A stretch of 64,000 nucleotides of DNA from Ostreibacterium oceani (GTDB taxonomy: Bacteria; Pseudomonadota; Gammaproteobacteria; Cardiobacteriales; Ostreibacteriaceae), in contig NZ_WHNW01000010.1 of the NCBI RefSeq assembly GCF_009362845.1, positions 1-64,000 of the forward strand, in the 5' to 3' direction. Numbering within the stretch: position 1 is the stretch's first letter; each line of letters opens with the position of its first letter. The notes under the pieces are model-generated. The model was not told where the DNA came from. It did no database searches and saw only the letters and a program-made list of their open reading frames with translations. The position numbers and the translations under genes were made by a program. Positions 53,509 to 59,136 of this stretch are shown here, piece after piece.

Positions 53509-53797
53509 AATCAGTTTGCCTATTAGTTTATTGTCTATTTAATGCGGTTAATTATAAAATAAATTTAACGCGAGGTCTTGCTCTTTAGGTTATTTTATTC
53601 GTATTTCCCTAGTAGCGCACTTAGTGGGATGGTATAAAGTAGCGCGTTAAACGGGCTATTGATTAACGGGTGTATAGCGTGCTAAGTTGGTAGTTAGTTA
53701 GCAATAATACGTTTGATTGTTATTTTTGCTTGCATTTAGCGGCAAAAATCATTTTAATAATAGCGAGTTAATTCAACTTTTTTTGGTAATTATCTAT

Positions 53798-55135
53798 ATG
53801 AGCCATGTTTTTCATCGAAGTTTGCAACAAACTTACCCTGTCGCCGTATCGGGTGAAGGCGTCTATGTCATCGATAACCAAGGCAAGCGCTATATTGATG
53901 CCTGTGGCGGGGCGGCGGTGTCCTGTTTGGGTTATGATTATGCGCCCCTGAAAACGGCAATCAACGCGCAAATAGACAAGCTCCCTTTTGTCCATTCGTC
54001 ATTTTTTACCACCGACATTTTAGAACAAGCAGCCGAAGCGCTAGTCAACGATACAAATGGTGTAATGAGCCATGTGTATTTTGTTTCGGGTGGTTCTGAA
54101 GCCATCGAAGCCGCAATCAAAATGGCGCGCCAGTATTTTGTTGACACAGGCAAACCCAGTAAACGCTACTTCATCGCGCGCAAGCAAAGCTATCATGGTA
54201 ATACGCTAGGTGCGTTGTCGTTAGGGGGGAATGAAGCAAGAAAGGCACCTTATAAGGATATTCTCATTGGCGCAAACCATATTTCTGCTTGCTATGAGTA
54301 CCGTGAAAAGCAACCCGATGAAAGCGCAGAAGCCTATGGGCTGCGTGCTGCCAACGAATTAGAGGCAGAAATTTTACGCCTAGGCGCTGAAAACGTCGCC
54401 GCGTTTGTTGCCGAAACGGTCGTTGGGGCAACGGCAGGGTGTCTGCCACCAGCGCCGACTTATTTTAAGCGAATTCGTGAGATTTGTGACCAATACGATG
54501 TACTGCTGATTCTCGATGAGGTAATGTGTGGTATGGGGCGTACTGGCACATTACATGCCTATACCCAAGACGGAATCACCCCTGATATTCAGGCAGTTGC
54601 CAAAGGCATTGCCGCTGGCTATCAACCACTGGGCGCGGTGTTTATGAAAGCCTTTATTGTCGATGCAATCCGACAAGGCGCTGGTTTTTTTCAGCATGGG
54701 CATACCTATATTTGTCACGCCACTGCGGTTGCGGCAGGCTTGGCAACGCAGCGTATTATCAAATCTGAAAATTTATTGGATAATGTGGTCAAACAAGGTG
54801 ATTACTTGAGTCAACGCTTGCACGAACAGCTAGCGGATAAGCCCTATGTTGGGGAAATTCGTGGACGAGGATTGTTTAAAGGGATTGAGTTGGTTGCCGA
54901 TAAAGCCAGCAAAACACCGCACGATGCCTCATTGCCGATTGCTTCACGTATTCGCGCAGTGGCGATGGACAATGGACTGATGTGCTATCCAATTGCTGGA
55001 ACGATTGATGGCGTCAATGGCAACCATGTTTTGCTGGCGCCTGCCTATATTATTCAAGCGCATGAGATAGATGAAATCGTTGATAAACTAGAAAAAACGA
55101 TAACAACAGTAATGGACGGAATCGCAACAAAATGA
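53798..55135 (+). CDS. Class III aminotransferase, probably for a beta-amino or omega-amino substrate
   Basis: The 445-residue PLP enzyme of the subgroup that includes beta-alanine, GABA and beta-amino acid aminotransferases. YFVSGGSEAIEAAIKMARQY, the PLP Asp in ILDEVMCGMGRTG (239-250), the lysine Lys269 in AKGIAAGYQPLGA and HTYICHA are present. Start at ATG 53798 (MSHVFHRSL); the upstream 27 codons are not family-like. The stop overlaps the BKACE gene by 4 bp, so both are translated together. Substrate unknown; context suggests it produces a beta-keto acid. Confidence 0.87.
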   Translation: MSHVFHRSLQQTYPVAVSGEGVYVIDNQGKRYIDACGGAAVSCLGYDYAPLKTAINAQIDKLPFVHSSFFTTDILEQAAEALVNDTNGVMSHVYFVSGGSEAIEAAIKMARQYFVDTGKPSKRYFIARKQSYHGNTLGALSLGGNEARKAPYKDILIGANHISACYEYREKQPDESAEAYGLRAANELEAEILRLGAENVAAFVAETVVGATAGCLPPAPTYFKRIREICDQYDVLLILDEVMCGMGRTGTLHAYTQDGITPDIQAVAKGIAAGYQPLGAVFMKAFIVDAIRQGAGFFQHGHTYICHATAVAAGLATQRIIKSENLLDNVVKQGDYLSQRLHEQLADKPYVGEIRGRGLFKGIELVADKASKTPHDASLPIASRIRAVAMDNGLMCYPIAGTIDGVNGNHVLLAPAYIIQAHEIDEIVDKLEKTITTVMDGIATK

Positions 55136-56019
55136 GTGCATCATCGCCGTCATTAGCGCCATCATCATCGCCGTCATTAGCGCCGATGGTGCTAGCAGTA
55201 GCGCCGAACGGTGCGCGTAAACAATATGACGACCATGCCGCATTACCACTAACCGCGGATGAACTCGCTGATACTGCGGTGAACTGCTTGGCGGCGGGGG
55301 CTTCTATGATGCATCTTCATGTGCGTGATGCGAATTTGGCGCATAGCATTGATGCAACACGTTACAATGCGGCATTTGATGCCATTCGTCAGCGCGTCGG
55401 CGAGGAACAATTATTTTTACAAGCAACAACAGAGGCAGTGGGTCTATTTGATACAGCCGCTCAAATGGCCGCTGTGCGAGAACTGGCCGCAAAACAAGCA
55501 GGGCAAGCGACATTTGGTGTATCAATCGCGGTTCGCGAGATGATGCCAGTGATAATTAGCGATTCCGTGATTGCGGATTTTTTTGCTTTTTTAAAAGACA
55601 GGACTATTTTGCCACAACTTATTTTGTATGATACGTCAGATTGTCAACGCTTACAGGATTTGCTGCATCGCCATGTATTACCTGGGCGAGCTTATCCTTG
55701 TTTGTTTGTGCTAGGGCGTTATGCCGATAATCAACAGTCGGATCCTAGCGAGTTATTACCCTTTTTTGCTAATATGACGGGTATCTCGAGCTGGATGGGT
55801 TGTGCATTTGGGCGCAAAGAATCTGCAGTAGCGGCGGCATCGGCGCTACTCGGTGGGCAAATGCGGATTGGCTTTGAAAATAACCTGCATTTAGCCGATG
55901 GACGATTGGCGGCGGATAATGGTGAATTGATTGCGCAAACCGCTAGCCAATTAGCGCGGTATCATCGACGGATTGCGACCTATGAGGAAACGAAAGCCCT
56001 CATGACCCCAGACTGGTAA
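55132..56019 (+). CDS. Beta-keto acid cleavage enzyme (BKACE, DUF849)
   Basis: The 295-residue zinc TIM-barrel enzyme belongs to the family that condenses a beta-keto acid with acetyl-CoA to give acetoacetate and a new acyl-CoA (known members act on 3-keto-5-aminohexanoate or dehydrocarnitine). VAPNGAR, the zinc His pair in MMHLHVRD (His61, His63) and GGQMRIGFENNL, with its conserved Glu, match. The first 18 residues are a tandem SSPSLAP repeat, so the true start may be ATG 55186. Next gene: acetoacetate-CoA ligase, which would consume the acetoacetate. Confidence 0.88.
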   Translation: MSASSPSLAPSSSPSLAPMVLAVAPNGARKQYDDHAALPLTADELADTAVNCLAAGASMMHLHVRDANLAHSIDATRYNAAFDAIRQRVGEEQLFLQATTEAVGLFDTAAQMAAVRELAAKQAGQATFGVSIAVREMMPVIISDSVIADFFAFLKDRTILPQLILYDTSDCQRLQDLLHRHVLPGRAYPCLFVLGRYADNQQSDPSELLPFFANMTGISSWMGCAFGRKESAVAAASALLGGQMRIGFENNLHLADGRLAADNGELIAQTASQLARYHRRIATYEETKALMTPDW

Positions 56020-56084
56020 TGAAAATGGTGATGAAATTGATTAGCCCGACGCATTTTATTGTATAACAACGTAAATAACACACT

Positions 56085-58058
56085 ATGCAACTTTGGAGCC
56101 CTTCAGCAGAAACAATCGACGCAGCACAGTCGACGCAGTTTATTAAAGCAATAAACAAAAAATATGAGGTAAATATCACTGATTTTCATCAGTTGTATGA
56201 TTGGTCGATACGCAATGATTTGGACTTTTGGTCTGAGTGTTGGGATTTTTGTGGCGTGATTGGCGATAAAGGCGGGCGTGTCATCAGCGATGCTGACGCA
56301 TTTTACCATCGTCGCTTCTTCCCTGATGGCCGACTTAACTTTGCCGAACATTTTTTGCAAAATCGTAGCGAGGATATCGCCATTATTTTTCGGGGCGAGG
56401 ATCAGGTTGAAAAAACCATGACCTTTGCCACGTTGTATCGTCAGGTGGCGCAGCTTAGGCAGTTTTTAATCGCACAAGGCGTTGGCAAAGGCGATTGTGT
56501 TGCAGGGGTGTTGCCCAATATGCCAGAAACGGTGGTGGCGATGCTGGCGACGACATCATTGGGGGCGATTTGGTCGTCGTGTTCGCCCGATTTTGGTGAG
56601 CAGGGGTTATTAGATCGTTTTGGACAAATTGCCCCCAAAGTCTTATTTGTGGTCAATGGCTATTATTACAACGGGAAGTCTTTTGATTGTCGTGAAAAAT
56701 TTGCAGCCGTTGTCGCAGCATTACCCAGTGTAAAACAAACCGTTGTTGTCGAGTATGCTGGGGATAACACGGCATTGGGTGGTGCGCGGTATTTGACGTT
56801 TGCCTCGGCACTGGCTGAATATCAGGCCGACACCATCGAATTTGAACGCTTTTCGTTTAACCATCCCGTGTATATTTTGTTTTCATCGGGGACAACGGGT
56901 AAGCCCAAATGCATTGTACACTGTGCTGGTGGCGTATTGCTACAGCATCTAAAAGAGCTCAAACTCCATGCCGATGTTAAATCAGGCGAGCGCCTGTTTT
57001 ATTTTACGACTTGTGGTTGGATGATGTGGAATTGGTTAGTATCGGGGCTAGCAGCGGGTGCAACACTTTGTTTATACGATGGTTCTCCCTTTATTGACCA
57101 AGGCAAAGTACTGTTTGATTATATCGACAAAGCCAATATTAACCATTTTGGCGTGTCGGCCAAGTATATTGATGCGTTAAATAAAATCGACTTTTCGCCC
57201 GAAGATCACTATCACTTGGGTAGCCTGCGTTCGATTTTATCAACAGGTTCTCCGCTATCAGGGCATAGCTTTGACTATGTGTATGACAAAATAAAAACCG
57301 AGGTGTGTTTGTCCTCGATTTCAGGCGGGACGGATATTGTGTCGTGTTTTGTGTTGGGTTCACCCACGTTGCCAGTTTATCGAGGTGAAATACAAACGCG
57401 CGGGTTGGGTTTGGCTGTTGATGCATTTGACGATGCTGGTCATCCCGTTCGCAGCGCCAACAATGCCGATAATGCCAGCAACGCCGATAACGCCAAAGGT
57501 GAACTCGTCTGTAAAAAGCCCTTTCCTTGTATGCCCATCAGATTTTGGCAGGATGTGGGTGACGAAAAATACCACGAGGCTTATTTTTCGCGGTTTAATG
57601 GCGTGTGGTGTCACGGTGATTTTGTTGAAATCACCGTGCATCATGGATTGGTTTTTCACGGGCGTTCAGACAGCATTCTAAATCCGGGGGGCGTAAGGAT
57701 TGGGACGGCTGAAATTTATCGTCAGGTTGAAAAAGTCGCCAACGTGGTTGATTCGGTGGTGATAGGCCAGCAGTACGAAGACGATATCCGTGTGGTGTTA
57801 TTTGTCCAGCTGTGCGATGGGGAAAAGCTATCTGATGCGCTAATCAATGAAATCAAGCAAACCATCCGCCAAAATACCACGCCGCGCCATGTGCCTGCGG
57901 TCATTTTGCAGGTCGATGCCATCCCCAAAACCAAAAGCGGCAAAGTCGTGGAGATTGCGGTGCGTGACGTGGTGCACGGTCAGCCCATTAATAATCTGAC
58001 GGCGCTCGCCAATCCTGAGGCGCTAGATGCATTTAAAAACCGCCCTGAGTTGGCCTAG
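56085..58058 (+). CDS. Acetoacetate-CoA ligase
   Basis: The 657-residue adenylate-forming enzyme has YILFSSGTTGKPKCIVH as P-loop, FYFTTCGWMMWNWLVSGL and the C-terminal KTKSGKVVEIAVRD with the catalytic lysine. The N-terminal LYDWSIRNDLDFWSECWDF and CGVIGDKG are characteristic of AACS over plain acetyl-CoA synthetases. A short Asn/Ala repeat (NNADNASNADNA) is inserted in the C-terminal part. It completes a probable operon with the aminotransferase and BKACE, 65 bp downstream. Confidence 0.9.
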   Translation: MQLWSPSAETIDAAQSTQFIKAINKKYEVNITDFHQLYDWSIRNDLDFWSECWDFCGVIGDKGGRVISDADAFYHRRFFPDGRLNFAEHFLQNRSEDIAIIFRGEDQVEKTMTFATLYRQVAQLRQFLIAQGVGKGDCVAGVLPNMPETVVAMLATTSLGAIWSSCSPDFGEQGLLDRFGQIAPKVLFVVNGYYYNGKSFDCREKFAAVVAALPSVKQTVVVEYAGDNTALGGARYLTFASALAEYQADTIEFERFSFNHPVYILFSSGTTGKPKCIVHCAGGVLLQHLKELKLHADVKSGERLFYFTTCGWMMWNWLVSGLAAGATLCLYDGSPFIDQGKVLFDYIDKANINHFGVSAKYIDALNKIDFSPEDHYHLGSLRSILSTGSPLSGHSFDYVYDKIKTEVCLSSISGGTDIVSCFVLGSPTLPVYRGEIQTRGLGLAVDAFDDAGHPVRSANNADNASNADNAKGELVCKKPFPCMPIRFWQDVGDEKYHEAYFSRFNGVWCHGDFVEITVHHGLVFHGRSDSILNPGGVRIGTAEIYRQVEKVANVVDSVVIGQQYEDDIRVVLFVQLCDGEKLSDALINEIKQTIRQNTTPRHVPAVILQVDAIPKTKSGKVVEIAVRDVVHGQPINNLTALANPEALDAFKNRPELA

Positions 58059-58504: not shown

Positions 58505-58804
58505 ATGAATGAAAATTGGGTAGACATTTATTATTTTACATTCGCCACTTGGGTCTATTTTTATTTCTATATTTCTTATTGGGTATTGTTATTAAATAAT
58601 AAATTCAATAACGAAGAAAAACGATCTACTTGCTACAGACGACATACGATATCAACCTGTATTGTGCTTATTTTTATCGTAGTAAATACATTTAGTGACG
58701 TGTTTGATGGTATTCGATTTTCAGACAGAATACCGATGATTTTATTTTCTCTTTTTTTAATAGGCTTGATTTTTGTGTTTTGGAAAATTAGGGAGAGAGT
58801 GTGA
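58505..58804 (+). CDS. Small membrane protein of unknown function (first of a pair)
   Basis: The 99-residue AT-rich protein has three likely membrane helices (FATWVYFYFYISYWVLLL, TCIVLIFIVVNTF and a C-terminal ILFSLFLIGLIFVFW) with a charged loop (NNEEKRSTCYRR). No family recognised. The stop overlaps the next GTG by 4 bp. Composition unlike neighbours suggests transfer or a relic accessory locus. Confidence 0.5.
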   Translation: MNENWVDIYYFTFATWVYFYFYISYWVLLLNNKFNNEEKRSTCYRRHTISTCIVLIFIVVNTFSDVFDGIRFSDRIPMILFSLFLIGLIFVFWKIRERV

Positions 58805-59136
58805 TTTTTTGTATCTTATTTATTATTCTTTGGGTGATACACTTATTTACTGTTAATTTGTTTTTAAATAACTTATTAATTAGAGCGGCGTTAAAGAAAA
58901 ACAATCAGCAAGATAGCAAAATTCACTCCAAATCAGAGACTCTTCTTACCTTAGTCGTGGTTTTCGCTTTTTTTTATTTCATGATAGGATTTGCGTACGC
59001 AGGTTCGCTTGTCTGGGAAAATAGGCTATCGCTTTTTCAAGCGAGCTTTCTTCTTATTGTTACGGCATTGATTAGTCCATTGATCTTTAGAAAAAAAATA
59101 AAAACAATAAGAGGGGCTTTTTGCTCAACTGGCTAA
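58801..59136 (+). CDS. Small membrane protein of unknown function (second of a pair)
   Basis: The 111-residue protein starts at GTG 58801 with an N-terminal helix (IFCILFIILWVIHLFTVNLFL), a basic loop and two more helices (VVVFAFFYFMIGFAYAG, LLIVTALISPLIF). Co-translated with the gene before it. Not recognised. Downstream sequence to 59215 has a short GC-richer open stretch (LANARMSGEYMADDIS...) that may be another fragment. Confidence 0.5.
   Translation: MIFCILFIILWVIHLFTVNLFLNNLLIRAALKKNNQQDSKIHSKSETLLTLVVVFAFFYFMIGFAYAGSLVWENRLSLFQASFLLIVTALISPLIFRKKIKTIRGAFCSTG

Follow-up and report, generated by a model that had tools for sequence, protein, structure and literature searches.

What does an operon do that joins a class III aminotransferase to a DUF849 protein and an acetoacetate-CoA ligase, and which substrate would it consume? 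The question is raised by a locus within a 64,000-nucleotide stretch of DNA from the gammaproteobacterium Ostreibacterium oceani (contig NZ_WHNW01000010.1, positions 1 to 64,000 of the forward strand), hereafter referred to as the window. A sequence-only reading had proposed a beta-amino acid degradation route, in which the aminotransferase (AT) makes a beta-keto acid, the DUF849 protein cleaves it with acetyl-CoA as a beta-keto acid cleavage enzyme (BKACE) and the ligase activates the acetoacetate released. In our analysis a beta-amino acid as the substrate survives as the best inference, while the acetyl-CoA-dependent cleavage step is not supported. We favor a mechanism in which the AT and the DUF849 protein would act in sequence on a beta-amino dicarboxylate, the latter as a decarboxylase; we give this mechanism, which does not require that the substrate be beta-glutamate, a probability of roughly 0.4.

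The AT gene (53798..55135, plus strand) and the DUF849 gene (55132..56019, plus strand), both complete and in frame from ATG start codons, share a 4-bp ATGA start-stop overlap (55132..55135, plus strand), and similarly close spacing is seen in Thalassospira, Magnetovibrio and others. Their association was assessed in 299 genomes of the phylum Pseudomonadota, in which window-type DUF849 proteins, called at E <= 1e-40, are present in 18 genomes. In AT-positive genomes a gap separates the weakest window-type DUF849 (2e-38) from the best other DUF849 (2e-17). ATs of the PRK07483 family, to which the window AT belongs, score over the cut-off in 13 of 17 genomes with the DUF849 clade, compared with 29 of the roughly 298 genomes in total (Fisher p = 7e-12; the genome of the window is excluded from these counts, and the sampled genomes cannot be taken as independent). 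In 10 of the 13 genomes that have both, the AT and DUF849 genes are neighbors. In a second genome collection the two genes again occur together in a long run of Thalassospira genomes, in one Magnetovibrio metagenome-assembled genome (MAG) and in others, and within the order of the host the window-type DUF849 was found in one other genome (G299) of the 32 searched, where it is part of the complete cluster set out in the next paragraph. The partnership of AT and DUF849, which extends over many families, has good support, and the module is of wider occurrence than the sequence-only reading recognized.

At many of these loci the pair is accompanied by an RpiR-type regulator, a TAXI-family TRAP solute-binding protein, a fused TRAP permease and a universal stress protein (Usp). 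The window carries no RpiR, TAXI-TRAP or Usp genes of this kind; another contig of the host (C2) holds a TAXI-TRAP-Usp module whose solute-binding protein shares up to 63% and whose permease 57% identity with the cluster proteins, while the next-best host TAXI solute-binding protein reaches only 39%. Given these matches, the transporter of the cluster seems to be present in the host in an unlinked position. The host encodes seven TAXI-family TRAP binding proteins over the cut-off in its 2.18 Mb, two of which are divergently adjacent (e.g., L129:11891-17250). Since the pairing recurs across Pseudomonadota with a regulator, a transporter and a Usp, and since the host has an orthologue of the transporter, a catabolic sequence in which the AT feeds a beta-keto acid to the DUF849 enzyme probably operates here.

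At many PRK07483 loci the regulator or the transporter is retained, yet there is no DUF849 gene. No consistent substitute for DUF849 was found beside these ATs, the neighbors being transporters, an Asp/Glu-racemase-family gene, an enoyl-CoA hydratase and unrelated genes. In the AT tree, whose branch supports are moderate, loci that have DUF849 are interspersed with loci that do not, and this intermixing argues for frequent loss or gain of DUF849. Two loci (L105 and L108) combine a PRK07483 AT and an RpiR regulator with an amino-acid ABC binding protein and an Asp/Glu-racemase-family gene, with neither TAXI-TRAP nor DUF849. At another (L058:9121-13428), the DUF849 gene is separated from the RpiR and AT genes by a gene of PF03417, the acyl-CoA:6-APA acyltransferase family.

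The nature of the DUF849 step was approached through family assignment and active-site residues. The window protein belongs to PF05853 (190 bits against a Pfam cut-off of 24.8) and is the only member of that family in the host genome. It falls below every NCBIfam BKACE equivalog cut-off that it touches, namely those for Kce (126 against 382), 3-oxoadipate (99 against 350) and 3,5-dioxohexanoate (69 against 430), and these names were rejected for it. Residues were mapped on Kce (PDB 2y7d), the numbering being checked by E14, H46, H48, Y145 and E230. Like Kce, the window protein combines the PF05853 TIM barrel with the Zn ligands (H61, H63 and E249 for Kce H46, H48 and E230), and R245 and Y166 correspond to Kce R226 and Tyr145. 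Unlike Kce, to which it is 24% identical in the fold comparison, it has I164 in place of E143 and N250 in place of D231, and its clade-specific residues R29, E101 and Q162 occupy positions 14, 84 and 141, the first two of which are Glu and Gly in Kce. An AlphaFold2 (AF2) model (pLDDT 94.5) finds its best PDB match in Kce (TM 0.78).

These replacements are characteristic of the clade rather than of the host. Ile143, Asn231, Glu84 and Gln141 occur in 30/30 sampled members and Arg14 in 26 of the 29 scored for that region; the Zn ligands and R226 are retained throughout, and Tyr145 in 28 of 30. Glu143 and Asp231, on the other hand, are conserved in each of the 20 further PF05853 proteins that these genomes encode, and also in Kce and PDB 3no5. 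In a broader sample further non-canonical DUF849 groups exist, and among complete, properly aligned sequences D231 is missing only in the window clade; one divergent and poorly aligned protein (L188), also without the Zn ligands, was set aside in this comparison. Another non-canonical group, of short PF05853 proteins of about 250 aa (L185, L186, L187 and L199), has Arg14, Gly143 and Asp231. In the family tree the protein lies in this noncanonical clade, the APNGARK clade (support 100/99 in an 88-row tree), in which two catalytic BKACE residues are replaced. No solved structure falls within this clade and no characterized member of it was found.

The residues H46, H48, E143, R226 and D231 are reported to be crucial for BKACE catalysis (PMC5741869). 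In BKACE15 of Paracoccus denitrificans (8RIO, 8RIP, 9HNF), which has the fold and Zn site in common with the window protein, E171 at the E143 position acts as the base, and the E171L variant abolished activity (PMC11961710). E171, Y173, R254, E258 and D259 of BKACE15 align with I164, Y166, R245, E249 and N250 of the window protein, which therefore has Ile where BKACE15 has its base. Given that the clade lacks Glu143 and Asp231 and that no BKACE equivalog cut-off is reached, the BKACE step is doubtful, and the window enzyme is quite probably not a standard BKACE. The Arg that replaces Kce Glu14 would fit an anionic substrate.

A precedent for other chemistry within the family is offered by group G6 of DUF849, which in the published summary comprises 70 proteins described as 'not BKACE, presenting decarboxylation activity', their main substrate being beta-ketoglutarate (16 activity cases), while group G7 is given there as inactive on all tested substrates (PMC4922564). 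The window protein may resemble G6, as summarized there, in being a DUF849 protein that is not a BKACE and in an acetoacetate product, which would fit the third gene of the operon. This gene (56085..58058, plus strand; complete and in frame from ATG, 65 bp behind the DUF849 gene) encodes an acetoacetate-CoA ligase (acetoacetyl-CoA synthetase, AACS), with 874 bits against a cut-off of 521 for TIGR01217 and a match to the acetoacetate-CoA ligase PDB 4wd1 at E = 1e-147. That the operon includes an AACS gene is consistent with acetoacetate being released free, and the host genome encodes two thiolases. If the window clade belonged to G6, the logic of the operon would fit a route from beta-glutamate through 3-oxoglutarate and acetoacetate to two acetyl-CoA. 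By analogy with that group, the DUF849 enzyme may be a decarboxylase, at odds somewhat short of even.

The proposed mechanism would start with uptake by the TAXI-TRAP importer, which is encoded on another contig in the host and beside the AT in many relatives, a conserved linkage that suggests this role. The AT, a class III enzyme by family, would then pass the beta-amino group of the substrate to a 2-oxo acid and so yield a beta-keto acid, which would be 3-oxoglutarate if our guess of the substrate is right. The DUF849 enzyme, having lost the BKACE base, would use its Zn site to convert this beta-keto acid into acetoacetate and CO2. AACS would form acetoacetyl-CoA from acetoacetate with ATP and CoA, as its family indicates, and one of the two thiolases would split this into two acetyl-CoA. 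Like the dehydrogenase-fed BKACE pathways (deoxyribonate and others), the scheme leads from a beta-keto acid through acetoacetate and acetoacetyl-CoA to a thiolase; unlike them, it takes the beta-keto acid from an AT and not from a dehydrogenase (PMC6365646).

As to the substrate, 3-oxoglutarate also decarboxylates spontaneously, and PRK07483 clusters that carry no DUF849 gene would fit this compound for that reason. Beta-glutamate (3-aminoglutarate) is our best single guess, a tentative one. It is a very abundant osmolyte of marine ammonia-oxidizing archaea and of methanogens: it reaches 730 mM in Nitrosopumilus maritimus (PMC8269262), an abundance which implies that degraders should exist, and its role in methanogens is known (PMC1224877). 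Our literature search returned nothing direct on an AT-BKACE cluster with TRAP transport, on beta-glutamate breakdown or on beta-ketoglutarate decarboxylation, and no catabolic pathway for beta-amino acid osmolytes was found in the literature searched. The complete proposal, an undescribed beta-glutamate pathway made up of TAXI-TRAP uptake, PRK07483 conversion to 3-oxoglutarate, Zn-dependent decarboxylation by DUF849 with the BKACE reaction given up, and AACS, is marginally more speculative than the choice of substrate.

The AT does not itself disclose the substrate. It matches NF005685/PRK07483 in NCBIfam with 695 bits against a cut-off of 485, over profile positions 1-440 of 444, and PF00202 in Pfam; its PLP lysine and aspartate (K269 and D240) are invariant across the family alignment, which offers invariant residues only and no reliable read-out of the substrate. 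A beta-amino group as its target is inferred from the partner enzymes only. The second-best family is PRK06917 (403 bits), whose YodT-like members are close relatives of PRK07483; YodT is the AT of the yodTSRQ operon of Bacillus. A YodT/PRK06917-like AT, a different family from that of the window, adjoins canonical BKACE genes of the BKACE15 type in four sampled genomes (L157, L158, L159 and L160), and at three further loci (L195-L197) a BKACE15-type BKACE likewise lies directly beside a YodT-like class III AT. The sequence-only reading had called an AT entry to BKACE unusual; this was overstated, given the recurrent AT-DUF849 adjacency and the four genomes just named.

A YodT/PRK06917-like AT is also present in the host, on contig C1 (L130:9962-16461), followed by 3-oxoacid CoA-transferase subunits A and B, an ArgE/DapE-family deacylase and a thiolase, with a LysR regulator gene upstream. 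Like the window operon, it sets an AT of a sister family before a beta-keto acid module; unlike it, a CoA-transferase, thiolase and deacylase stand in place of DUF849 and AACS. With this operon the host has a second candidate pathway for beta-amino acids. That two unrelated beta-keto acid modules, one with CoA-transferase and thiolase and the other with BKACE, adjoin YodT-like ATs suggests beta-keto acids as the products of this AT family.

Several observations weigh against the decarboxylase mechanism. The invariant Glu101 might substitute for the lost base and permit a BKACE-like reaction, and the role given to Arg29 (position 14) comes from a sequence alignment and not from a complex. The window clade could correspond to G7, inactive on everything tested, instead of G6. 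AACS lies near the AT-DUF849 module in two loci only, the window and the Magnetovibrio MAG (L044), which makes this linkage the weaker evidence. Neither PRK07483 nor the DUF849 clade of the window has a known substrate, and YodT, the sister AT, is itself uncharacterized (PMC6522883).

The alternative that survives best, although we consider it unlikely, is that the DUF849 enzyme carries out another reaction altogether (hydrolysis, isomerization or another carboxylate reaction) and that the AT acts on a non-beta amino acid. In its favor, cis-epoxysuccinate hydrolase is among the related folds of the AF2 model (TM 0.74); the DUF849 protein BsfD has divergent chemistry (PMC12871164), the G7 proteins of the published summary are inactive on all beta-keto acids tested, and neighbors such as the Asp/Glu-racemase-family gene accompany some PRK07483 ATs. 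The AACS gene of the operon, however, points to acetoacetate, and the partners of the related YodT-like AT are beta-keto acid enzymes of two kinds. Slightly less likely again is a true BKACE with its base relocated to Glu101, which would convert the AT-made beta-keto acid into acetoacetate and an acyl-CoA (malonyl-CoA in the case of 3-oxoglutarate), with AACS and thiolase recycling the acetoacetate. The retained fold, Zn ligands, R226 and Y145 would suit such an enzyme, for which recycling by AACS is natural, and canonical BKACE-AT pairs occur elsewhere; the clade-wide Ile and Asn at positions 143 and 231, the inactivity of BKACE15 E171L and the failure to reach any NCBIfam BKACE equivalog speak against it.

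A beta-alanine route is improbable. In this alternative the AT would produce malonate semialdehyde and the DUF849 enzyme would turn it into formyl-CoA and acetoacetate, as a natural counterpart of the BKACE step in the synthetic CORE-cycle; malonate semialdehyde is a substrate of more than 20 BKACEs, and a BKACE combined with beta-alanine:pyruvate transaminase works in E. coli (PMC11961710), but the catalytic Glu for that reaction is missing from the window protein and the clade-wide Arg14 would find no second carboxylate. Very improbable is an AT that follows DUF849 and takes an aminoacyl-CoA, in the manner of Kat, which acts on 3-aminobutyryl-CoA after cleavage in variant lysine fermentation, where a class III AT likewise lies in a DUF849 (kce) gene cluster (PMC3149608): Kat is described as HemL-like and not PRK07483, Kce Glu14 is Arg in the window protein, the BKACE reaction itself is doubtful for that protein, and the other lysine fermentation genes are absent, the host lacking the lysine 2,3-aminomutase AblA and the clusters read containing no kamDE or kdd genes. 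Lysine fermentation as such was rejected on the absence of AblA and the E14 replacement.

The three gene identities and the operon layout of the sequence-only reading, with its 4-bp overlap and 65-bp gap, are borne out by coordinates and profile matches. An in-frame TTG at 53717 is an alternative AT start; the ATG at 53798 is favored because the NF005685 alignment begins at residue 1. Scans for promoters and terminators gave nothing beyond shuffled expectation. Downstream of AACS, a 111-aa open reading frame (58801-59136) has no Pfam or NCBIfam match.

If the favored AT-decarboxylase mechanism is true, it would provide a function for a large clade whose members may be named 3-keto-5-aminohexanoate cleavage protein in automatic annotation, and would explain a transporter-regulator-enzyme cluster conserved in many marine bacteria. 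The genes concerned would then become markers for the turnover of beta-amino acid osmolytes. The residue replacements also caution against equating membership of PF05853 with BKACE function.

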